64,000 bases of DNA, taken from NCBI RefSeq assembly GCF_000296445.1, contig NZ_JH815198.1, positions 732,975-796,974 of the forward strand. Reading direction: 5' to 3'. Origin of the DNA: Slackia piriformis YIT 12062. GTDB taxonomy: Bacteria; Actinomycetota; Coriobacteriia; Coriobacteriales; Eggerthellaceae. This document shows, in pieces, positions 13,919-23,862 of this stretch. Position 1 is the stretch's first letter, and each line of letters starts with the position of its first letter. A program made the translations under genes and the position numbers. A model generated the notes under the pieces. That model did not search any database and was not told where the DNA came from. It saw only the letters and a program-made list of their open reading frames with translations.

Positions 13919-15736
13919 TTATTGGCGCAAAGGCCGGTTCTGGTAGAGGCCGGCATCGTTGAAGCCGAGGTTGCGGTAGTATTCGCGCGTGCCAATGGCG
14001 CTGATGACGTTTACGGATGCATAGCCCGCCTCTTCGGCCATGGCGCACGCCGTCTCCACCAGCTTACGGCCTAGGCCGATGTGCTGGGCACCCTTGCTTG
14101 TGGCGTGCAGTTTTGCGGCAGCCCCGTATACGTGCACTTCGCGAATCATGGCCTGGTCCGCTGCGATAGGCAGGTTCTCACGTGCGGCCAGGGCGTCTGG
14201 GCGGGGCAGCGATAGACGCAAAAACCCTGCAATGCGGTCGTCTTCGGTGGTCCATTGCAGGAAGTGCTCCGTGCTTACCGCCGTTTCGTATTCAACATCG
14301 TGCAGTGTCAGGTCGCTCGCCTCCGCCGTTCGGTTGTTTATCTCGCGGTAGCGAATATCGCGCACGTCCTCAGCGCGCCCTGTCTTTTCGATATGCCCTT
14401 CCACCATCTGGCGCAGGTTGGTTTTCTTGTTGCCCACTAGGATGTCGCACGCGGAAATGTCGCGGATCATGCGCGAGATGCGCATATAGGGCGGTGTGAT
14501 CAGCGTGTCATGGGAAAGAACGTCCACGAGCTCTTCCTCGGTATAGGGCCGCCAACTGCCGTCTTCGTAGTGAGGAACAAGCCCTGTTCCCTCAACGAGG
14601 GCGCATGGGTAGAGCTTCACCTCGTCAGGGAGATAATGCGGGTCGGTGACGAACTTTTCGTAGTCGAGCTTGTCGCCCGCCGGCGTTGCGCCGTAGAGGT
14701 TCACCATGAAGTGCGCGTGGATCTTGAAGCCGAACAGGCGCAACAGGGCGAATGCTTCCTGAATGGCATGCGGGTCGGTATGGCGGTTGTTCAGGTCGAG
14801 GATGTTCTGGTCAAGGCTCTGGATGCCGATCTGCACCTTCGTGCAGCCGAGGCGACGAAGCAAGGCAAGCTTGGGCACCGTGATGGTTTCGGGGCGCGTT
14901 TCCACCACCAGACCAACGCAGCGGTGCCGGGCGCGTTCGTTTTCCTCCTGAAGGCGGTCTATTTCTTCCAGGGTGGCGTGCTGCATCGCGGAAGCTTTCG
15001 CCCAGGCCGTGTTGTTCCCGTAGAGGGCCCGCAGCGCATCGGCGAAGGAGGACTTTCCGTCGTTGACTGCTTCCTGCAGGTCTTTCGCGGCCGACGCGAG
15101 TCCTTGTTCGTCGTTCAAGATGCCGGCTTCGCGATAGAACGCGCGGCGCTGCGCGGCGTGTTCTTCCATGACGTCGCCGTCGTTAAGGGCGCGGAAAAGC
15201 TCTGCCATGAACCAGGTGCGGTATTCGGGGGGATAATCGTCCCACGTGCCGCCGAGCACAATGAGCTCGATCTTGTCCGTGGGGTGCCCCATCTGCGAAA
15301 GCGCGCGCAGGCGCGACGCCACCTGCAAATACGGGTCGAACCAATTGCGCTCGGCGCGCTGGCATGCGGGTTCGTTGTGCAGGTAGCTTTTGGGCATACG
15401 CACGTCGTTGGGGCAGTAGAGGCAGTCGCTTCCGCAGAACCAGGGCTTGGTGATGACGGTGATGGTTGCCACGCCCGATGCCGTGCGACGCGGTTTCATC
15501 TGCAGCGCGGCGATCAGCGCGCGCTCGGTCTGCTCGTCCACGTTCCACGAACGCCACGGCTCTTCCTTGGTATTCTTCGCGTTAAAGTAGTAGGGGAGCA
15601 GGTGCTTTTTGGCGAAGTGGTCGCGGTTGTCTTTGAGGTTCTTATTGTGTTCGTGCAGGATGCGCGCGAGCACCTTGTGGTCTACGGCGGTGCCGCGGCG
15701 TATCTCTTCGATGATTTCAAGCAAAATAGTATCCAT
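13919..15736 (-). CDS. elp3: Elp3-type tRNA U34 carboxymethyl transferase (radical SAM / GNAT)
   Basis: Elp3 uses acetyl-CoA and radical SAM chemistry to make 5-carboxymethyluridine at the tRNA wobble base. The 605-residue protein has the radical SAM cysteines C101, C105 and C108 (FCGSDCLYCPN), ELIVLGGTWDDYPPEYR, VVETRPETI and VQIGIQSLDQNILDLNNR. A C-terminal GNAT domain follows, with HIGLGRKLVETA and VISAIGTREYYRNLGF near the end, matching the Elp3 acetyltransferase signature. It is somewhat longer than yeast Elp3 (557); the extra sequence lies around residues 200-265. Bacterial Elp3 proteins exist, for example in Dehalococcoides, but are uncommon. Its start is only 32 bases from the start of the divergent Trm9-like gene. 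Confidence 0.93.
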   Translation of the reverse strand: MDTILLEIIEEIRRGTAVDHKVLARILHEHNKNLKDNRDHFAKKHLLPYYFNAKNTKEEPWRSWNVDEQTERALIAALQMKPRRTASGVATITVITKPWFCGSDCLYCPNDVRMPKSYLHNEPACQRAERNWFDPYLQVASRLRALSQMGHPTDKIELIVLGGTWDDYPPEYRTWFMAELFRALNDGDVMEEHAAQRRAFYREAGILNDEQGLASAAKDLQEAVNDGKSSFADALRALYGNNTAWAKASAMQHATLEEIDRLQEENERARHRCVGLVVETRPETITVPKLALLRRLGCTKVQIGIQSLDQNILDLNNRHTDPHAIQEAFALLRLFGFKIHAHFMVNLYGATPAGDKLDYEKFVTDPHYLPDEVKLYPCALVEGTGLVPHYEDGSWRPYTEEELVDVLSHDTLITPPYMRISRMIRDISACDILVGNKKTNLRQMVEGHIEKTGRAEDVRDIRYREINNRTAEASDLTLHDVEYETAVSTEHFLQWTTEDDRIAGFLRLSLPRPDALAARENLPIAADQAMIREVHVYGAAAKLHATSKGAQHIGLGRKLVETACAMAEEAGYASVNVISAIGTREYYRNLGFNDAGLYQNRPLRQ

Positions 15737-15768
15737 AGCGGTTCAGTCTATCGTATAGAATCGGCTGG
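15737..15768. promoter_or_regulatory. 32-base divergent elp3 / Trm9-like control region
   Basis: Only 32 bases separate the two start codons. The segment contains TATCGTATAGAAT, which can be read as -10-like elements on both strands (TATAGA on plus, TATACG on minus). There is no room for separate promoters with normal leaders, so overlapping promoters with very short or leaderless transcripts are likely. Confidence 0.45.
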
Positions 15769-16632
15769 ATGACTATGGATACGAAGACCGCTGAAATACT
15801 CTGCAAGACAACCGCCGATTTCTACCGCGCGCAGGCCGCGTCGTTTTCGGCTACGCGCACGGCGCCGTGGCACGGCTGGGCGCGCTGCGTGGACGTGATG
15901 ACGGAGGCGCTTGGGGTTGCAGGGCGCGGTGTGCCTTCCGACGCCCGCACTCAATTCTCGGCAGGCGAAGGCTCCGGTTGCGAAGGCGCTGTCTTGACGG
16001 GGTGCGCCGCGTTTTCGGTCTTCGACCTTGCGTGCGGCAACCTGAGATTCGAGCGGTTTCTTGAGGAGGCTCTGCCCGATGCCAGCCTGCGCATTTATGC
16101 GGTGGACAGCTGCGACGAACTGGTCGCGTCCGCCGACGGGCCGAGCGCGCCTGTGACGTACGAATCCGCAGACATCGTTGGCGGCCTTATAGAGGGCTTG
16201 CCGCTCTCTTGCCTGCATCATGCGCCGCAAGGTGACGCGGCTGTGTCCTTCGGGTTTTTGCACCATGTGCCGGGCGAAGAGTTGCGCGTGCGTGTGCTGG
16301 AAGGGCTGATAGACGCCGTGCGTCCGGGAGGCTGCGTGGCGGTGTCTCTCTGGCAGTTCATGAACAATTCCACGCTGGCGGCAAAGGCCGAAGTTACGCA
16401 TGCGCAAGCGATTAAAGCCCTTGGACTTGCGCCGGGCAAGCTTGACGAAGGCGACTATCTTTTGGGCTGGAAAAACGTAGAGGGTGCTTGGCGGTATTGT
16501 CATCACTTTTCTGACGAAGAAGTTGGCCGATTGGTCGCTGCGGTTTCAAACCGTGCTCACGTTATTGATTCCTTCGAAGCCGACGGCCGTACGGGCGCGA
16601 TGAACAGGTATGTGGTGCTGCAGCGGATTTGA
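15769..16632 (+). CDS. Trm9/ABH8-like tRNA wobble-uridine carboxymethyl O-methyltransferase
   Basis: The 287-residue class I SAM methyltransferase resembles yeast Trm9 (279 residues) along its length. The N-terminal hallmark FSATRTAPW (residues 26-34) corresponds to FSQTRYKPW in Trm9. SAM motif I is FDLACGNLRFERFL (from residue 85). FGFLHHVPGEELRVRVLEGLIDAVRPGG corresponds to the Trm9 VHHW...RRVEVI segment, and the C-terminal WRYCHHFSDEEVGRLV corresponds to QRYYHMYREGELEELV. Trm9 methylates cm5U, the product of Elp3, to mcm5U at tRNA position 34. Sitting head-to-head with elp3, it likely completes that pathway here. No partner like Trm112 is seen. A generic methyltransferase is the alternative. 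An ATG two codons later is equally usable. Confidence 0.78.
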   Translation: MTMDTKTAEILCKTTADFYRAQAASFSATRTAPWHGWARCVDVMTEALGVAGRGVPSDARTQFSAGEGSGCEGAVLTGCAAFSVFDLACGNLRFERFLEEALPDASLRIYAVDSCDELVASADGPSAPVTYESADIVGGLIEGLPLSCLHHAPQGDAAVSFGFLHHVPGEELRVRVLEGLIDAVRPGGCVAVSLWQFMNNSTLAAKAEVTHAQAIKALGLAPGKLDEGDYLLGWKNVEGAWRYCHHFSDEEVGRLVAAVSNRAHVIDSFEADGRTGAMNRYVVLQRI

Positions 16633-16708
16633 GGGGCTATCGGACGAAGAGCGGCTACTTTTGACTGACCTGGCAAATGCATTGGTGGCCTCTTCGGCGA
16701 TGCTAGCG

Positions 16709-16978
16709 TCATAAGTCATATTGCTTCCTTACATCAGCGGTGAGCGTCTTGGCGTCCCTTGAGCATCCGGATTCGATATCGGATATGCCTTTGTCGACGA
16801 TGGCGTAAAGCTGAGCCCTTGCAGCTTCGGGGCGCAGGCCTTCATGTATTTCGGAAGACATGGAAACAAGGGTTTCCTTCCCGTTCTTCGTTACGATTGC
16901 GGGAGCTTGTGCGGCATGCCCCGGTTCGGCGAACGCGGCGGCGTCTTTCATGTCCCTGATGGGAACGCAAATAGGCAT
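16709..16978 (-). CDS. Phd/YefM-family antitoxin without adjacent toxin
   Basis: The 89-residue protein fits the Phd/YefM antitoxin fold: N-terminal MPICVPIRDMKDAAAFAE and IVTKNGKETLVSMS, the DNA-binding half, with a C-terminal tail that would bind a toxin. The ribosome site AAGGAGA is five bases before the ATG. Downstream only 76 bases remain before the stop of the Trm9-like gene, so no Doc, YoeB or ParE toxin is encoded there. A 9-bp-arm inverted repeat directly upstream is the expected autoregulatory operator. It may be the survivor of a decayed module or may act in trans. Confidence 0.75.
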   Translation of the reverse strand: MPICVPIRDMKDAAAFAEPGHAAQAPAIVTKNGKETLVSMSSEIHEGLRPEAARAQLYAIVDKGISDIESGCSRDAKTLTADVRKQYDL

Positions 16979-16989
16979 GGCTCTCCTTC

Positions 16990-17025
16990 TTATGCGACGT
17001 CTTGCTATTTCAGAATGTCGCATAA
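16990..17025. promoter_or_regulatory. inverted repeat, probable Phd operator
   Basis: Perfect arms TTATGCGAC (16990-16998) and GTCGCATAA (17017-17025) are separated by 18 bases, a little over one and a half helical turns. It lies 11 bases upstream of the phd start and within the 110-base gap shared with the divergent gene at 17089, so bound antitoxin could affect both. Confidence 0.6.
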
Positions 17026-17088
17026 TTACGGGATTACATCAATGCTGATTGGAGAATATGCGCAGCGAACGTTGAGAGGATGATGGAA

Positions 17089-17937
17089 ATGGGTCTTGAT
17101 GCGTACGTGACTTGCAATTGCTTCGAGGAGGGGAAGCTTTCGAATCCGCCGGAGCCCTTCACGATGGACGATGTGTATCGTGACGAGGAAGGCTTCCTCT
17201 GCTCTCATATGCTGGACAGTTTGCGAAAAAGTCTTGGTTACTCTGATTATATAGATCGTCATGCCGCGCTTAACGATCGCTTTCACGATTGGGTCGATCA
17301 TGCCTGCGAGCATGAGGATGGCGAATATTGTAGCGAATGGGTGGGTAACTGGGCCGGAGCGAGGGAATTCCAATCTGTCGTCGAGGAGTTGGGCGGCAAC
17401 GATAGATACCCGGTTCTCAGCGGCCTTATTCCCGATAGCAACGGCGGGTGTTTTCCTGCGGAGCTTGCGAAAAAGGCAATAGAGGAGATTGACGATTTGG
17501 TCGAATCTGCAAGAGGTCTCGTCTTCAATTCGTTGGTTTGCGAGGATTCGGAAAGCCCAATTTGGTCCTGCGCAGATCATGCGTCTCATCCTATCTTGAT
17601 GGGTCCTGGTTTCGAAATGGGCATGGAGGGGAATGCGGCGTATTTCGTGGACGGCAAGGGCCGCACGTTGAAGAGCCGAAGATTCAGGCAAGACCCAATA
17701 GGACTCGAGGGAGAGAATGGCTCTCAGGAAATGGCGATCACGCTCCATGAAACGGGGGAGCGTATTCGTTCTTTCGATTCGATTGGTCCACATGGCGCAC
17801 CTAAAGTAGCCAGAGAGTTTTGGGTGGAACCTCGGGAGGCTCCCTTCATGTACGAGGGGCGTTACTACAGGGCGGAGCGTATCAGGTCGCTTCTGGTTGC
17901 GTCCGTGGAGACGGGAAACCCGATTCGGTGGTGTTAA
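17089..17937 (+). CDS. conserved hypothetical protein (GLDAYVTCNC family)
   Basis: The 282-residue soluble protein begins MGLDAYVTCNCFEEGKLSNPPEP and contains CEHEDGEYCSEWVGNWAGAREFQ. I recall similar openings (MGxDxYxxCxCxxxG) in uncharacterised proteins of actinobacteria, but no function is known to me. Cys and His near the N-terminus (CNC; HACEHEDGEYC) might bind metal. GAGAGGA lies eight bases before the chosen ATG; two nearer ATGs (17080, 17083) are in frame. It is divergent from the lone antitoxin and may share its operator. GC content is lower than in the housekeeping regions, consistent with an accessory island. Confidence 0.6.
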   Translation: MGLDAYVTCNCFEEGKLSNPPEPFTMDDVYRDEEGFLCSHMLDSLRKSLGYSDYIDRHAALNDRFHDWVDHACEHEDGEYCSEWVGNWAGAREFQSVVEELGGNDRYPVLSGLIPDSNGGCFPAELAKKAIEEIDDLVESARGLVFNSLVCEDSESPIWSCADHASHPILMGPGFEMGMEGNAAYFVDGKGRTLKSRRFRQDPIGLEGENGSQEMAITLHETGERIRSFDSIGPHGAPKVAREFWVEPREAPFMYEGRYYRAERIRSLLVASVETGNPIRWC

Positions 17938-18330
17938 TGGCTCATTGATGCCATCAATTGCAGGCGCTTTGATCTCTCGTACAAATGATTATCAAGTTCC
18001 GATTGACCCATCTGATGATGCTTAACCGCACGGCCAACTTTTTGAGAATTATTGCTCTAAGGCCGCGCTGTAAGGGAAGGGTGCATTGGGGTTTACTGCA
18101 ATTTTTCGTAAGGTCTCAAATGGGAATTTATGGGTGTAAATGCCTTTCTAGCAAGGGATGCGAAGAGCGCTATCCGCGACAAGAATCGCACACTTTGTGT
18201 GGGTATGGAATTTTGGATGTGGTCAGGTTTCTTGCCGGTTTCGCTTCGTAAATCATCTATGCAGTTAAGTCGGTATTTAAGATGTGATATTTTGAAGATG
18301 CATTTATAAACCTGTTTAGGGAGTCCCTGT
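17938..18330. other. 393-base AT-richer region upstream of the restriction gene
   Basis: No recognisable gene is seen. An 88-codon frame starting at 17985 is unlike any family I know and ends before the restriction gene. The last 80 bases are AT-rich and should carry the promoter; AGGGAG before the ATG at 18331 is the ribosome site. Confidence 0.4.
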
Positions 18331-19020
18331 ATGTCCGACATTCACCACGGTTACGGTCTCGATTGGATTGACGAAGACGCGCTTTATGAAGTTGTTAAGC
18401 ATGTTTTTGAAAATTCGATTGAGAAGGCGAAGTCATCCAAGCTGTCCGCTCCACCCGATCCGTTCACCATTGCTGCTCAGGCAGTTTTATTTGGACAGCC
18501 AGCGGATAGCATGATGGCTTTCGAGAAACTTAGGGGTGTAAACAAAACCATTTCCAATGCGGTTGGTAATCTTCATCAGAGCGTCCTTGGTTTAGCGGAC
18601 GGGTGGGATAATCTTGGCTCGAATGGCGGTGTCGTTGATTTAATCGTGCATGAAACTCCCTATTCGAAGCCTGTTCACGTTGAGGTGAAAAATAGATACA
18701 ACACCATCAAAGCTTCCGATGAAAAGGATATATGGGATAAGCTAGATATGCTCGCGCGAACAAATGCAAGCGTTTCTTATCTGGTTCAAATTGTGCCAAA
18801 AGTCCCCGTTAGGTACGACAAGCCGTGGAGGGTCTCGGGACGTCCCGAGCGCGATAACGTACGGTGTTGCGATGGAGCTACGGCATATACGTGGGCCTTC
18901 GGTCGGGAGACCGCTCTCGAGGAACTGTATGATGTCTTTCCTGACATATTGAGCGATGTTATTCATAGCGACTACGATAAAAGCGGAATGATGAAGTATT
19001 ACTCGATAAGTATGCCTTAA
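18331..19020 (+). CDS. type II restriction endonuclease, Eco47II/Sau96I family
   Basis: The 229-residue protein matches the Eco47II-type restriction endonuclease family: DPFTIAAQAVLFG, NKTISNAVGNLHQSVLGLADGWDNLG and HVEVKNRYNTIKASDEKDIWDKLD. The PD-(D/E)XK catalytic set is D103 (VVDLIV), E118 and K120 (VEVK). Characterised relatives cut GGNCC, so that site is predicted here, not shown. The cognate m5C methyltransferase follows 71 bases downstream on the same strand, so restriction comes before modification and the palindrome between them probably sets relative expression. The gene is clearly AT-richer than its chromosomal surroundings. Confidence 0.85.
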   Translation: MSDIHHGYGLDWIDEDALYEVVKHVFENSIEKAKSSKLSAPPDPFTIAAQAVLFGQPADSMMAFEKLRGVNKTISNAVGNLHQSVLGLADGWDNLGSNGGVVDLIVHETPYSKPVHVEVKNRYNTIKASDEKDIWDKLDMLARTNASVSYLVQIVPKVPVRYDKPWRVSGRPERDNVRCCDGATAYTWAFGRETALEELYDVFPDILSDVIHSDYDKSGMMKYYSISMP

Positions 19021-19046
19021 TCTCATTTATCTTAGTATCTATCTGA

Positions 19047-19086
19047 TAATATAATAACCTTTACATAGGCAAAGGTTATTATATTA
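19047..19086. promoter_or_regulatory. 16-bp-arm palindrome between restriction and methyltransferase genes
   Basis: Arms TAATATAATAACCTTT (19047-19062) and AAAGGTTATTATATTA (19071-19086) are perfectly complementary around an 8-base spacer. The right arm ends five bases before the methyltransferase ATG. It is too AT-rich and lacks a following T tract for a classic terminator. It can be a DNA operator for the HTH domain of the methyltransferase, or an RNA hairpin hiding the translation start. Confidence 0.7.
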
Positions 19087-19091
19087 GGTGA

Positions 19092-20357
19092 ATGATGCAA
19101 TTGCAGTTCGTAAGTGTTACCGCCGCAGCAAAGGCTCTTGACGTTTCGGCCGATACGATTCGCAGATGGAATAAGCTCGGACTTATTAAGGCAACGCGTG
19201 ACAAGAACGGGAAAAGGCTTTTTAACCTAAAAGAAATTCAGCGCCTGCAGCGTAAACTGAATGGCGAAGGTGAAGAAGCTTCATTTAGGGTTCTTAAAGA
19301 AGATAGTGCTATTGAAAAAGCTACTTGCATTGATTTGTTTGCGGGTGCAGGCGGAACAGCGCTTGGCTTCGCAAACGCCGGTTTATCTCACGTGTATTTG
19401 AATGAGTTCAATGCGAAAGCAGCTGCAACCCTAAGAAATAATAGCAAAAAGCAAAATCTCGGTTGGAATGTTGACGATAGAGATATTAGAGATGTCTCAT
19501 TTAAAGGGATGAAGGCCGAAGTGATCCAGGCGGGATTTCCGTGTCAAGCGTTTAGCTATGCTGGAAAATCTCGAGGATTTAATGACACTCGAGGAACTTT
19601 GTTTTTTGAATTTGCACGTGCGATCGAAGAGGTTCGTCCTAAGATTGCCATTGGTGAAAATGTGCGAGGTCTTTTGAGGCACGATGAAGGTCGTACGCTG
19701 GAAACGATGCTGAATACCCTTGATGAGCTTGGGTATTATGTAAATTACCGAGTGTTACGCGCCCAGTATCTCGATGTTCCCCAGAAACGTGAACGTTTGA
19801 TTATCTTTGCCGTTAGGAAGGATTTGAGTTGTCCTATCCTTTTCCCTCGGGAAAAGGATTACTTCATTTCTCTTCGCGAGGCTTTAAAAGATTGTCCCGC
19901 TTCAGATGGGCAGCAATATCCGGAAAAGAAAAAAGCGGTTATGGACTTGGTTCCCGAAGGTGGCTGTTGGCGCGATTTGCCTGACGACATTGCGAGGGAA
20001 TATATGGGCGGCAGCTATTATCTGGGGGGTGGCAAGACGGGTATGGCACGACGTCTCTCGTGGGATTATCCCAGCTTAACCCTGACTTGCTCACCAGCTC
20101 AAAAGCAAACCGAGAGATGTCATCCTTCAGAGACGAGACCGTTAAATATACGTGAATATGCCAGGATACAGACTTTTCCTGACGAGTGGGAATTTACTGG
20201 TGGAATATCAGACCAGTATAAGCAGATTGGCAATGCCGTTCCGGTTAATCTTGGGTACCACATTGGTCGCTGCGTCCTAGCATCACTCGGTTACATTGAG
20301 CGCACCGAAGACATGGAGCAGGTTTGTCCCATTGTGCTGAATCATGAAGGAAGATAG
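19092..20357 (+). CDS. DNA (cytosine-5-)-methyltransferase with N-terminal MerR-like HTH
   Basis: The 421-residue enzyme methylates cytosine at C5 to protect the host from the upstream nuclease. Residues ~6-55 form a MerR/excisionase-type HTH (VTAAAKALDVSADTIRRWNKLGLIKATRDKNGKRLF compresses to the usual pattern). The methyltransferase follows: motif I IDLFAGAGGTALGF, motif IV GFPCQAFSYAG with catalytic C151, motif VI IGENVRGLL, motif VIII PQKRERLIIF, and motifs IX-X ending YKQIGNAVPV. The pattern fits M.Eco47II/M.Sau96I-type enzymes (GGNCC, predicted). ATG at 19095 is also possible; AGGTGA abuts the start. The HTH beside a perfect palindrome suggests autoregulation. Confidence 0.9.
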   Translation: MMQLQFVSVTAAAKALDVSADTIRRWNKLGLIKATRDKNGKRLFNLKEIQRLQRKLNGEGEEASFRVLKEDSAIEKATCIDLFAGAGGTALGFANAGLSHVYLNEFNAKAAATLRNNSKKQNLGWNVDDRDIRDVSFKGMKAEVIQAGFPCQAFSYAGKSRGFNDTRGTLFFEFARAIEEVRPKIAIGENVRGLLRHDEGRTLETMLNTLDELGYYVNYRVLRAQYLDVPQKRERLIIFAVRKDLSCPILFPREKDYFISLREALKDCPASDGQQYPEKKKAVMDLVPEGGCWRDLPDDIAREYMGGSYYLGGGKTGMARRLSWDYPSLTLTCSPAQKQTERCHPSETRPLNIREYARIQTFPDEWEFTGGISDQYKQIGNAVPVNLGYHIGRCVLASLGYIERTEDMEQVCPIVLNHEGR

Positions 20358-21549
20358 CTTGAACAACACGTCGTCTAATTCTTTGGTTGACCTGGTAAAC
20401 GATTTGATTGCCTCAGGAAAAGAAGGATCCTACTGGGATTTCAAGCTTGAATGGCATCATGACAACGGAGATCTTGTTCACGATGTTATCTGCTTGGCAA
20501 ATAACCCTGAAGCCCGTAGAGCTTATTTGATTTTTGGTGTTGATGATGAAAGCTATCAAATAGTGGGCATCAATGAAAACGCAAGCAAAAGAAAGAACAC
20601 TCAGCAGCTCATAGACACGTTGCATTCGGCCATTTGGGCAGAAACTTATCCACGGGTTGAAGTTACTACGGTGCATCTGGCTTGCCGCAATATCGACATC
20701 ATAACGATTGATCCAGATTGGCATATCTTGCCATATTTTTTGATAAAGGATTTCGGAAGAGGGAAGCAGACTGTTCGTGCGGGCGCGATTTATTCAAGGT
20801 CTCAAGACGTAAATGTTGGGAAAAACGAAACTGCTCCTGCTTTAGTTGCCGAAAGATTGTGGCGAAATAGGTTTGGCTTGGACAAAACACCATTGCAGCG
20901 GATTGCCTGCTTGATGAGCAATCCTGAAAAATGGGAGAAAACCTCTCCGTCTTGTATTCATGACGACATCGCATTCGCAAGCTGTTTTTATCACAGGGAC
21001 TATCCTGAGTTTACTATCGCCAGAACTCCTGATGAGGATAGGGATGCCTATGAATACTTCATGCTTGCTAGCCCTTATTTCAGGGAACCTTCTTGGTGGA
21101 CGACGCGTTTTTATTATCATCAGACGATGTTGCGCGAAATCCACGGGGCTTACTCCGACCATCTTTACATTCCCATTCCTACGGCAAGTATGTTGAGCTC
21201 TCCTAGGTCGGAATGGAGTGATGGATGGCTTCCTCCGAATTATGGATTCTATTGTCAGGATTCAATAGAAATCAAAATGCTTGAGTTTGATTTGGGTAAA
21301 GAAGGGCATTCATTAGCATGGGTTCGGGATAGACTGCTGCGTATGATTCCGGTATTCAGATCTGAAGAGGAGCGTACGGGCTTCGAGTCGTGGCTTTGTT
21401 CTGAATGGGATAGGTTCCGCTGTTCCTGGGATGTTCAGGATACTGTATTTCCTGAACTTAAAAATGACTATGGGAAAGATCTTGTGAGGCAGGCGAAAAT
21501 GTCAGCAACAATTGTAGACTTTCTAACCGAGTATCGAAGCCTTGCATAA
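20344..21549 (+). CDS. Schlafen AlbA_2-domain protein linked to the R-M system
   Basis: The 401-residue protein begins with an AlbA_2 (Schlafen-type, putative DNA/RNA-binding) domain: GKEGSYWDFKLEWH, DLVHDVICLANN, AYLIFGVDDESYQIVGI and TQQLIDTLHSAIW, roughly residues 20-150. The C-terminal ~250 residues, Trp/Tyr-rich, are not recognised. It overlaps the methyltransferase by 14 bases in another frame, so translation is coupled and the three genes form one unit. Other AlbA_2/Schlafen-like proteins occur in phage-defence loci, and an accessory defence role is inferred. It shares the AT-rich composition of the R-M genes. Confidence 0.72.
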   Translation: MKEDSLNNTSSNSLVDLVNDLIASGKEGSYWDFKLEWHHDNGDLVHDVICLANNPEARRAYLIFGVDDESYQIVGINENASKRKNTQQLIDTLHSAIWAETYPRVEVTTVHLACRNIDIITIDPDWHILPYFLIKDFGRGKQTVRAGAIYSRSQDVNVGKNETAPALVAERLWRNRFGLDKTPLQRIACLMSNPEKWEKTSPSCIHDDIAFASCFYHRDYPEFTIARTPDEDRDAYEYFMLASPYFREPSWWTTRFYYHQTMLREIHGAYSDHLYIPIPTASMLSSPRSEWSDGWLPPNYGFYCQDSIEIKMLEFDLGKEGHSLAWVRDRLLRMIPVFRSEEERTGFESWLCSEWDRFRCSWDVQDTVFPELKNDYGKDLVRQAKMSATIVDFLTEYRSLA

Positions 21550-22186
21550 GCGGGCATATCGATTTTCGTCATTTGCTCGCTAGAGTTGAAGGTGGTGCGT
21601 TACGGCATTCGGAGACTTAAGGGAGATGCGCTCTTCTCTTGCGATTCTCAGTGTTTTATTCCCTCAGGTTCGTAAGCATGTTTGTCAACACTGATTTGAA
21701 AAGCGCGAAAAGCTTGATTCAGGTTGCTTTGTGAACGGAATCCGCCGAAGAGGGTATCATCATTAGGTATACGTTGAAGCGAATGCGTGGGCGACATTCA
21801 TCGGGATTAACGAAGGGGTTGAGCCGTTGTCTAAGACGGCATCGTGAACGACTCCGTGGTTGCGCATGAACGATCATGTCGGAAAAGATGCTATTGTATT
21901 TCAATCCTCGATTTCCCGCTGCTCGATTCGATCGAGGCGCGTTTTTTCTGATATTGCCGGCGATTCTGCGGAAAGAATGTGTGAAGCTTTGTTTGCTGGG
22001 GATAAAGGCGCCCGAGGGCACCGCGAAGATTGTAAATGAGATTAGATAGGTTCGGATTTGGCATTCTCTCTGAATGACGCGATGGCGCTGGGCATAGTCC
22101 TATCGAAAACTGTAAGCGACAAATACTCCTGGCGGCACTTGTTCAAGTGGCAGGTAAGTCAACAATAAGGCAAGGAGAACGGGGCG
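21550..22186. other. 637-base region of apparent gene decay
   Basis: No complete gene is found. A short open stretch at 22046-22168 has protein-like character (ends DKYSWRHLFKWQVSQQ) but no start, and resembles the tail of a lost gene. The surrounding sequence is AT-richer than the chromosome average and full of stops, as expected at the edge of a foreign island. Confidence 0.4.
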
Positions 22187-22450
22187 ATGCCAACACTTAG
22201 CGAACGCTCGTTCGAATCAATTGCGAAGATGTTTATAGGCGACGAGGGGGAGTTGTCCTGTTACTTGTCCGACCCACAGATAGTGGCATTTTCCAATAAT
22301 AATTTTGGTTTTCAGGATATTTACCAAGGTGGTAATGCTCCCACTAGATGAAGGTACGCTGCTGAAAAGATAGCTAGCGTTGAGTCGAGCGGAAACTCGC
22401 TGAAGCTTCTCAAAGAAAGGGCGCCGGAGGTCTTCCAGCGCCCTTGTTAA
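22187..22450 (+). pseudogene. truncated gene with in-frame TGA, possibly abortive-infection-like
   Basis: AAGGAG precedes an ATG opening 54 codons (MPTLSERSFESIAKMF..., FSNNNFGFQDIY...NAPTR) that end in TGA at 22349-22351. The same frame continues for 32 codons with plausible protein sequence (RYAAEKIASVESSGNSLKLL) to TAA at 22448. The TGA probably replaces TGG, since TRWRYAAEKI would read naturally. I have a faint recollection of similar N-termini in AbiJ-like abortive infection proteins, which I cannot confirm. The gene is also cut short at its 3' end by the terminator of the convergent operon. Confidence 0.5.
22411..22445 (-). terminator. terminator of the 4Fe-4S/ATP-grasp operon
   Basis: On the minus strand an 8-bp stem AAGGGCGC / GCGCCCTT, extended after one mismatch by three more pairs, is followed by TTCTTTG. 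It lies 32 bases beyond the ATP-grasp stop codon. Confidence 0.7.
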
Positions 22451-22476
22451 ATCCTGTGCTATCTGGCGGTCAAGCC

Positions 22477-23862
22477 TTAATCGATTTCAGCATCAACCCA
22501 AATAGTCGCAGCGGTAATCCCGCCGGTCTTCTTGGAAATCACCGGCTCGGGTCCCAGGCGGCTGAAGACGCCGGTGAAGCGGCCGTTGTAGAGGTACAGG
22601 CCCGACAGGTTGGCGTAGGGCTGCGGCTCTGCCGTGTAATCGCCCTCTTCGCCGCGCAGGGGGAGTGCCATGGTGCGGTGCGGGGTGCAGTAATGCTGCA
22701 CAATAAACGGCGCACCGGCCGCGCCGTTGGCGTAGCGGTCTATGATCTGCGCCCATTCTTCGTCGGAGAAGTCCAATCCCGCATACACGTCTTTGCTGCC
22801 GTACGCATCCACGGGCTTGATGATCCAGTTTTCGCGGTCGCGCTTTACGGCATCCAAGTCCACTTCATTATCGTTCAGAAACGCCGTGAACGGCACGGTG
22901 GCTTCCACGAAGGCGTTCTCTTCGTCGGTCAGAAGAGCCTTTGTCTCGGGCTTGAACAGCACCTGGAAAATCTGCTTGTCGTGCACCAGATGCCCCGCGA
23001 AGCTGCCGATCAGCGCCACCTTGCGTGCACGCACGGCTTCGATCAGCGGCTGCGAAGCCTCCCAGTTGTCGATGATGTCGTTGGTCACGCTGCGGCGCCA
23101 AATGGCGTCGATTGGTGCATTGTCGCGGCCGTAGAACGCCTTGCGGCCAATGAGGCGACCGTCTTCATACGCCAGATCGCGCACGTCATAGACCGAGCAT
23201 TCAATGCCGCGCTCGGCGAACAGCTTGGAGAAGATCTTGAACTCTTCGGTAATGGCGTTTTCCAAAAAGTCCACGATGGCAATGTGCGGGTTTTCCACCT
23301 TGAACGCATAGGTGTCGTAAATCGAAAGGAACTCGTCCACCCAGCCGGGGAACAGCGCCTTATCGCAGGTGGCAAGCTTGTGCTGCTCAGCAAACGCCTG
23401 GTAGGCACCGCAGCCCTGCATGCTTGCCGTGATCTCGCGGTTTTCGTTCATGCCGCTGGAGCCGTCTGCGTTGAACTCGCAGAACTTCGCGGTCATGGCG
23501 TCTTCGTCCAGGAACATGTCCACGCGAGCGAAGGGCAGAATGGCATCGTAGTCACGCGACAGCAGGATCAAATCAACCAGGCGCTCGTCGATGTCGTATA
23601 CATGGCGGTATTCGGGGTTTTCCAGATACTCGCGCATGACCTTCACCAGAATGCGGTGCGTGGTTTCGGAGGCGTATTTGAAGTAGTCGTAGGTCTTCTG
23701 GTCGAAGAAGCGCGGCACGTAGGAGGAGTTCACCACGGTGCCGTGATAGATCGCGGTGGAATGCTCCATATGATTGCGCGCGGCTTTCATGCCTTGCACA
23801 TCGCCGTCAAGCGCCGCTACGTGCTGCAGATATTCGTCGGTATAGGCTTTGTTCGCGTTCAT
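22477..23862 (-). CDS. glutathionylspermidine synthase-like ATP-grasp ligase
   Basis: The 461-residue protein resembles the C-terminal synthase half of glutathionylspermidine synthases and other circularly permuted ATP-grasp enzymes. The pre-ATP-grasp segment KFCEFNADGSSGMNENRE fits the family's ExNxDxxxxxxE pattern. ATP-binding parts include WIIKPVDAYGSKDVYAG and PFIVQHYC, with the end GPEPVISKKTGGITAATIW. Such enzymes form an amide between a carboxylate and an amine; the substrates here are unknown, and actinobacteria of this type are not known to make glutathionylspermidine. The start has GGAGAG upstream and lies nine bases after the stop of the 4Fe-4S gene, so the pair is an operon. It might ligate a thiol peptide, polyamine or cell-wall amine. 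Confidence 0.75.
   Translation of the reverse strand: MNANKAYTDEYLQHVAALDGDVQGMKAARNHMEHSTAIYHGTVVNSSYVPRFFDQKTYDYFKYASETTHRILVKVMREYLENPEYRHVYDIDERLVDLILLSRDYDAILPFARVDMFLDEDAMTAKFCEFNADGSSGMNENREITASMQGCGAYQAFAEQHKLATCDKALFPGWVDEFLSIYDTYAFKVENPHIAIVDFLENAITEEFKIFSKLFAERGIECSVYDVRDLAYEDGRLIGRKAFYGRDNAPIDAIWRRSVTNDIIDNWEASQPLIEAVRARKVALIGSFAGHLVHDKQIFQVLFKPETKALLTDEENAFVEATVPFTAFLNDNEVDLDAVKRDRENWIIKPVDAYGSKDVYAGLDFSDEEWAQIIDRYANGAAGAPFIVQHYCTPHRTMALPLRGEEGDYTAEPQPYANLSGLYLYNGRFTGVFSRLGPEPVISKKTGGITAATIWVDAEID

Follow-up and report, generated by a model that had tools for sequence, protein, structure and literature searches.

A cytosine methyltransferase carrying a MerR-type winged helix as a putative autorepressor acting on a conserved upstream dyad

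The methyltransferase gene, its palindrome and its surroundings

The window, that is, the whole 64 kb stretch of DNA that was analysed, carries on its forward strand two genes of a restriction-modification (R-M) system arranged in tandem. The upstream gene, R (18331–19020), encodes an Eco47II-family restriction endonuclease (PF09553, 1.1e-26; 94.1 bits for a cut-off of 25.9). The downstream gene, M, encodes an m5C methyltransferase (MTase) of 421 residues and extends to 20357 from a start at 19092, or from the second in-frame ATG at 19095. Its catalytic domain (residues 74–400, 19311–20291) matched PF00145 (6.5e-78 over residues 78–393 in the profile search) as well as M.HhaI and M.HaeIII. A MerR-type winged-helix domain (HTH) occupies residues 6–55 (19107–19256), with the recognition helix at residues 20–28 (ADTIRRWNK); PF00376 matched residues 11–44 (6.6e-9) and PF13411 residues 8–53. 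Named members of the Eco47II family are of the GGNCC type and, judging from the family name, GGNCC may be the sequence recognized by this R-M system.

A perfect inverted repeat lies immediately upstream of M (19047–19086). Its 16-bp arms (19047–19062 and 19071–19086) are 100% complementary and flank an 8-nt loop, reading TAATATAATAACCTTT-acataggc-AAAGGTTATTATATTA, and five bases (19087–19091) lie between the repeat and the ATG at 19092. The first-pass annotation, made from the letters of this stretch, had described the palindrome in these terms, and its description was exact. No longer perfect inverted repeat occurs in the window, and 12 Markov shuffles peaked at 12 bp.

On the other side, the 3′ end of M overlaps by 14 bp a Schlafen/AlbA_2-type ORF on the same strand (20344–21549; PF04326, 2.3e-9), a candidate defence protein of the PADLOC class PDC-S50 (1.1e-101). 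This ORF may be co-transcribed with M, and it was not found beside M at the other HTH-MTase loci. The GC content is 45% across 18331–21549 versus 58.5% for the window. The endonuclease was found in none of 11 genomes of the same genus, and one genome from another genus carries R at 79% and M at 82% identity, which suggests that R and M were acquired horizontally. Separately, we noticed that the interval between the radical-SAM and ATP-grasp flanks (15736–22477 in the window) is a variable site in the genus, measuring 6.7 kb here, 7.2 kb in genome G006 and 13.5 kb in genome G004.

A dyad that accompanies HTH-MTases across phyla

Six further HTH-MTase loci, taken first from related genomes, all had the dyad or a dyad-like core, AACCYTTRCAT...GGTT, just upstream of the gene. 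A wider scan, of 84,980 species genomes, identified 80 HTH-MTase loci. Viral contigs, scanned likewise, contributed 12 further HTH types, together with 68 loci whose match lay mainly in the MTase domain; 64 of these 68 formed a non-HTH control set. We built a symmetric matrix from 12 actinobacterial sites, that of the window among them, and applied it with a cut-off of 19 within 150 bp upstream to held-out loci, which were unique, came from many phyla and encoded proteins at least 55% identical to that of the window. The core dyad, TAACCHTTGC-N4/5-GCAANGGTTA, reached at least 19 upstream of 58 of the 68 held-out HTH-MTases, and each of these 58 sites outscored all 100 shuffled versions of the region upstream of its gene. 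The first-pass annotation had put forward this search of homologous loci as a check, and the outcome that it named as refuting its idea, upstream regions devoid of inverted repeats, did not occur. By contrast, none of the 64 non-HTH MTases had the dyad upstream (top score 10.1 for the same cut-off of 19). Away from the expected position, a single site scored at least 19 among all scanned loci, at −1513 in locus L097.

In the window, the predicted operator is the 24-bp TAACCTTTAC-ATAG-GCAAAGGTTA (19055–19078), with a score of 29.8 that is to be read knowing that this locus belongs to the training set. Of each 16-bp arm, the conserved element therefore takes in just the 8 bp nearest the loop; the outer 8 bp are specific to this locus. 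We had considered the full arms as the functional unit and rejected this, since an extension of at least 3 bp occurs in only 18 of 70 loci. Across these 70 unique loci, the half-site reads TAACCHTTGC, with the CC invariant on both sides (70/70) and position 6 free, and the half-sites stand 4 bp apart in 38 loci and 5 bp apart in 32.

When one mismatch was allowed, the pattern fell at three places in the 2.1 Mb genome of the window, and just one of them matches the consensus in full. The pattern was counted five times across 396 genomes from the phylum: two copies are at such MTases, and the other three are off-centre with no MTase close by. On these counts, the predicted operator appears essentially private to the M gene. 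Pattern matches in viral contigs had mixed centres and just one lay beside such an MTase, and viral decoy sites were discarded as an idea. A second AACCCTTCCGAACGGAAGGGTT palindrome in the genome of the window (G000:C1:1051249-1051270, L202) has no TTGC core and is probably unrelated to the operator.

The position of R varied widely. Eco47II-type homologues adjoin HTH-MTases at most related loci, and in the operator-bearing loci the profile search placed R upstream in tandem in 21, convergent in 13, divergent in 9 and downstream in tandem in 5, and did not find it in 22. Whether the order was R>M>, M>R>, divergent, convergent or without R, the operator lay directly upstream of M. On a tree built from the MTase domain, the HTH being left out, one group of 80 held the 70 operator-bearing rows and 10 others; the R/M arrangement (side or orientation) changed at least 10 times on this tree while the operator stayed before M. 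It follows that the operator goes with M, and that the palindrome belongs to M and not to the R/M boundary. The same palindrome precedes relatives in many phyla, so that the whole feedback loop would move with the gene.

These data also bear on the earlier suggestion that the palindrome, by separating R from M, sets their ratio. The separation exists in the window but is not general, R being convergent, downstream or not found elsewhere. Since the palindrome is tied to M, a direct switch of the R:M ratio is not a general feature, and since no direct control of R is possible in convergent loci, a ratio set by position suits some arrangements only. Any effect on the ratio would usually act via the level of M, not via a control site shared by R and M. 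A reverse-strand R promoter using the operator as its −35 was also tried, and was seen in none of the nine divergent loci.

Could the palindrome instead work as an RNA or DNA hairpin, one that terminates or attenuates transcription after R, or a stem that controls translation in the M leader? The predicted stem is strong (−24.1 kcal/mol versus −12.2 for shuffles, z −4.5), and outer-arm complementarity of at least 3 bp occurs in 18 of 70 loci where 6 are expected. Yet the site has no T-tract, no terminator was called there and Rfam gave no match. Left and right half-sites covary at chance level, save weakly at position 6 (30/70 versus 22.9, p 0.04), and it is the half-site letters themselves that are conserved. 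Moreover, the element is retained in convergent and no-R loci, which an upstream R transcript does not cross, and is missing from non-HTH MTases. A hairpin or terminator was therefore rejected as improbable.

Fold of the N-terminal domain, promoter overlap and matching changes in helix and site

All 75 aligned N-terminal domains matched both PF00376 and PF13411. The AlphaFold2 model (54 sequences, pLDDT 87.8) shows a helix-helix-strand-strand-helix order, and the best PDB matches given by Foldseek were BldC, NmlR, RacA and GlnR (best E 0.0017, probability 1.00); MerR-family chains were also matched in the PDB by sequence, and CueR was among the PDB matches overall. Profiles and fold therefore agreed with the MerR-like HTH initially placed at residues 6–55. 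Neither a coiled-coil dimerization helix nor a ligand domain is present in the model, in which the last helix ends at residue 56 and is followed by a linker and the MTase. The tolerance of a spacer of 4 or 5 bp suggests that two MTase monomers meet on DNA at the dyad, much as M.SsoII, a monomer in solution, binds its own site 2:1 (PMC3978073).

Two layouts relate the operator to promoter-like elements. In operators with a 5-bp gap, the left half-site holds a −35-like TTGCAT, and a TANNNT lies 16–18 bp downstream of TTGCNN in 27 of the 32 loci, against 3.7 expected. In 15 of the 38 loci with a 4-bp gap, again against 3.7 expected, a −10 (TATAAT, TATAGT and the like) shares its last T with the start of the operator; 17 of the 38 have neither layout. 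The window is of the 4-bp type, with a −10 running into the operator: the last T of a candidate TATAAT (19050–19055) is the operator's first base, and a candidate −35, TTATCT (19027–19032), weak at 3/6, stands 17 bp upstream. A generic consensus scan called no strong promoter at this site and, given also the 17 loci with neither layout, the promoter of the window is one that we infer. A protein bound to the operator would obstruct RNA polymerase in either layout. As a side observation, the ATG of four loci (L064, L065, L067 and L073) comes about 7 nt past the inferred −10, which suggests that their MTase mRNAs are leaderless.

The same geometry speaks to the idea that the MTase is a classical MerR activator, which would bind within a 19–20 bp spacer between −35 and −10 and distort the promoter. 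The DNA-binding fold is shared and the dyad has a MerR-like length; long palindromes in promoter spacers, of 19–20 bp for classical activators, are described for the family (PMC9909328). However, that spacer was not seen: either the operator covers the −35 and the spacing is 16–18 bp, or the −10 is upstream of the operator. The dimerization helix and ligand domain are also absent from the model, and the other m5C MTases studied for binding to their own genes repress them. Activation of this kind was thus rejected as highly improbable. We gave next to no credence to control of the CfrBI type, in which a recognition site within the promoter is methylated. It is an established mode of R-M control (PMC3978073), but neither GGNCC nor CCNGG occurs in the interval 18894–19300, and the closest GGNCC, at 18893, lies inside R.

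We then compared recognition helices and operators. S19, D21, R24, R25, W26, R36 and R42 are common to 61 of 61 aligned canonical loci. Where the helix reads ETLRRW or is otherwise changed, the dyad differs or is gone. A shorter dyad, AACC-N9-GGTT, was found in three loci with SEDTIRRWAK (L066, L085 and L092) and in two with ETLRRWDR (L129 and L132). Three loci with KETLRRWD (L125–L127) have copies resembling AACCATGATCAATGTT upstream of M, repeated at intervals of about 50 bp, and neither the canonical nor a variant dyad was found upstream of L124, whose HTH is degenerate. Four loci departed from this pattern (L080, L086, L097 and L113), the HTH looking largely intact yet the operator being degenerate, half lost or not recognized; in L054, the end of the contig cuts the locus. 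We also noticed that in the three SEDTIRRWAK loci, where the HTH is modified, the shorter dyad sits on a TTGCAT-N17 promoter.

One strain of Kribbibacterium absianum has two copies. L045, on contig 3, is a canonical pair of HTH and operator, while the second copy, L055 on contig 2, carries S19P and D21A and no canonical operator was found upstream of it. Their difference is as expected if paralogues avoid cross-repression. Incidentally, the region upstream of L055 contains many GAGACAG/CTGTCTC repeats, among them an imperfect but long inverted repeat between about −126 and −88; this is possibly a new operator. The palindrome might in principle be used by a host regulator rather than by the MTase, the link between MTase and site being an association of sequences. 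We regard this as a remote prospect: the site is near-private to the M gene and is conserved across phyla with the same HTH, and its form follows the recognition helix of the MTase itself, even between the paralogues L045 and L055.

Proposed autorepression and its relation to known systems

Collectively, the domain fusion and an operator that is conserved and specific to HTH-MTases, overlaps promoter-like elements and covaries with the HTH lead us to favour, with a probability of about 0.85, a bifunctional protein that is both enzyme and autorepressor, acting via its MerR-type winged helix on the upstream dyad. The N-terminal domain would bind both TAACCHTTGC half-sites, probably as two monomers dimerizing on DNA, and would block RNA polymerase at the MTase promoter, either where the left half-site contains the −35 TTGCAT (5-bp gap) or where the operator starts within the −10 (many loci with a 4-bp gap, including the window). 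In a new host, where the enzyme is absent, M would be made freely and DNA protected; as M accumulates, its own synthesis would be capped. Binding, repression, dimerization on DNA and this timing after transfer are predictions. The built-in autorepressor proposed by the first-pass annotation is supported by a dyad that is present in 70 unique HTH-MTase loci, overlaps promoter elements and tracks the HTH.

Autorepression by MTases is itself a known class: M.SsoII, M.Ecl18kI, M.EcoRII, M.MspI, M.ScrFIA and M1.LlaJI repress their own genes (PMC3978073, PMC3874152). Like M.SsoII and M.Ecl18kI, the present protein joins an N-terminal HTH to an m5C MTase and faces an inverted repeat over the M promoter, but autorepression has been demonstrated for that kind (PMC3978073, PMC3874152) and is proposed here. 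The HTH of M.SsoII is phage-repressor-like, modelled on the 434 repressor, and its site is the 15-bp AGGACAAATTGTCCT; here, a MerR-type winged helix accompanies a 24/25-bp dyad, the endonuclease is of the Eco47II family, and the operator is kept through many phyla and gene orders. A AGGACAAATTGTCCT-like operator is a feature of the SsoII subtype and not of autoregulatory HTH-m5C MTases overall. The N-terminal domain shares its winged-helix fold with sensor-less members of the MerR superfamily (BldC, RacA, NmlR, GlnR/TnrA), from which it differs by fusion to a DNA MTase, absence of a dimerization coil and a repressor-style overlap of operator and promoter. Type II systems of the Eco47II (PF09553) family have the same endonuclease family and a partner m5C MTase, and we found no account in the open-access literature of an MTase HTH or an operator in them, nor any of a MerR-type domain linked to an MTase or to R-M autoregulation. 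The novelty lies in the MerR-type domain and in the operator, together with the persistence of this operator across phyla and gene orders.

R-M systems allow bacteria to tell self from non-self, and how they spare a new host is an old question, usually answered by controller proteins that have to function with foreign transcription machinery. Systems with such C proteins resemble the one proposed here in that an HTH protein exerts feedback on a Type II system. They use a separate controller, whereas here the protective enzyme is itself the proposed regulator, which would replace such a controller as first suggested. No controller gene was found: of the small ORFs near R and M, six were examined and none has a Pfam HTH. 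Since the operator overlaps general promoter elements, the spread of the system across phyla would be explained. The consensus is precise enough for direct tests and for predicting the regulation of many R-M systems that have not been studied, and these loci supply a family of HTH-operator pairs.

More tentatively, and as a possibility that we hold to be doubtful, the system could be a portable feedback module that also senses unprotected host DNA by titration and insulates paralogues by changes in helix and operator. One protein and one operator over generic promoter elements, kept intact through many phyla, would then suit whichever bacterium receives them. Unmethylated chromosomal sites would compete with the operator for this one protein, so that unmodified DNA, by titrating the enzyme, would ease repression; the MTase would in this way gauge what share of a newly entered genome remains unprotected.
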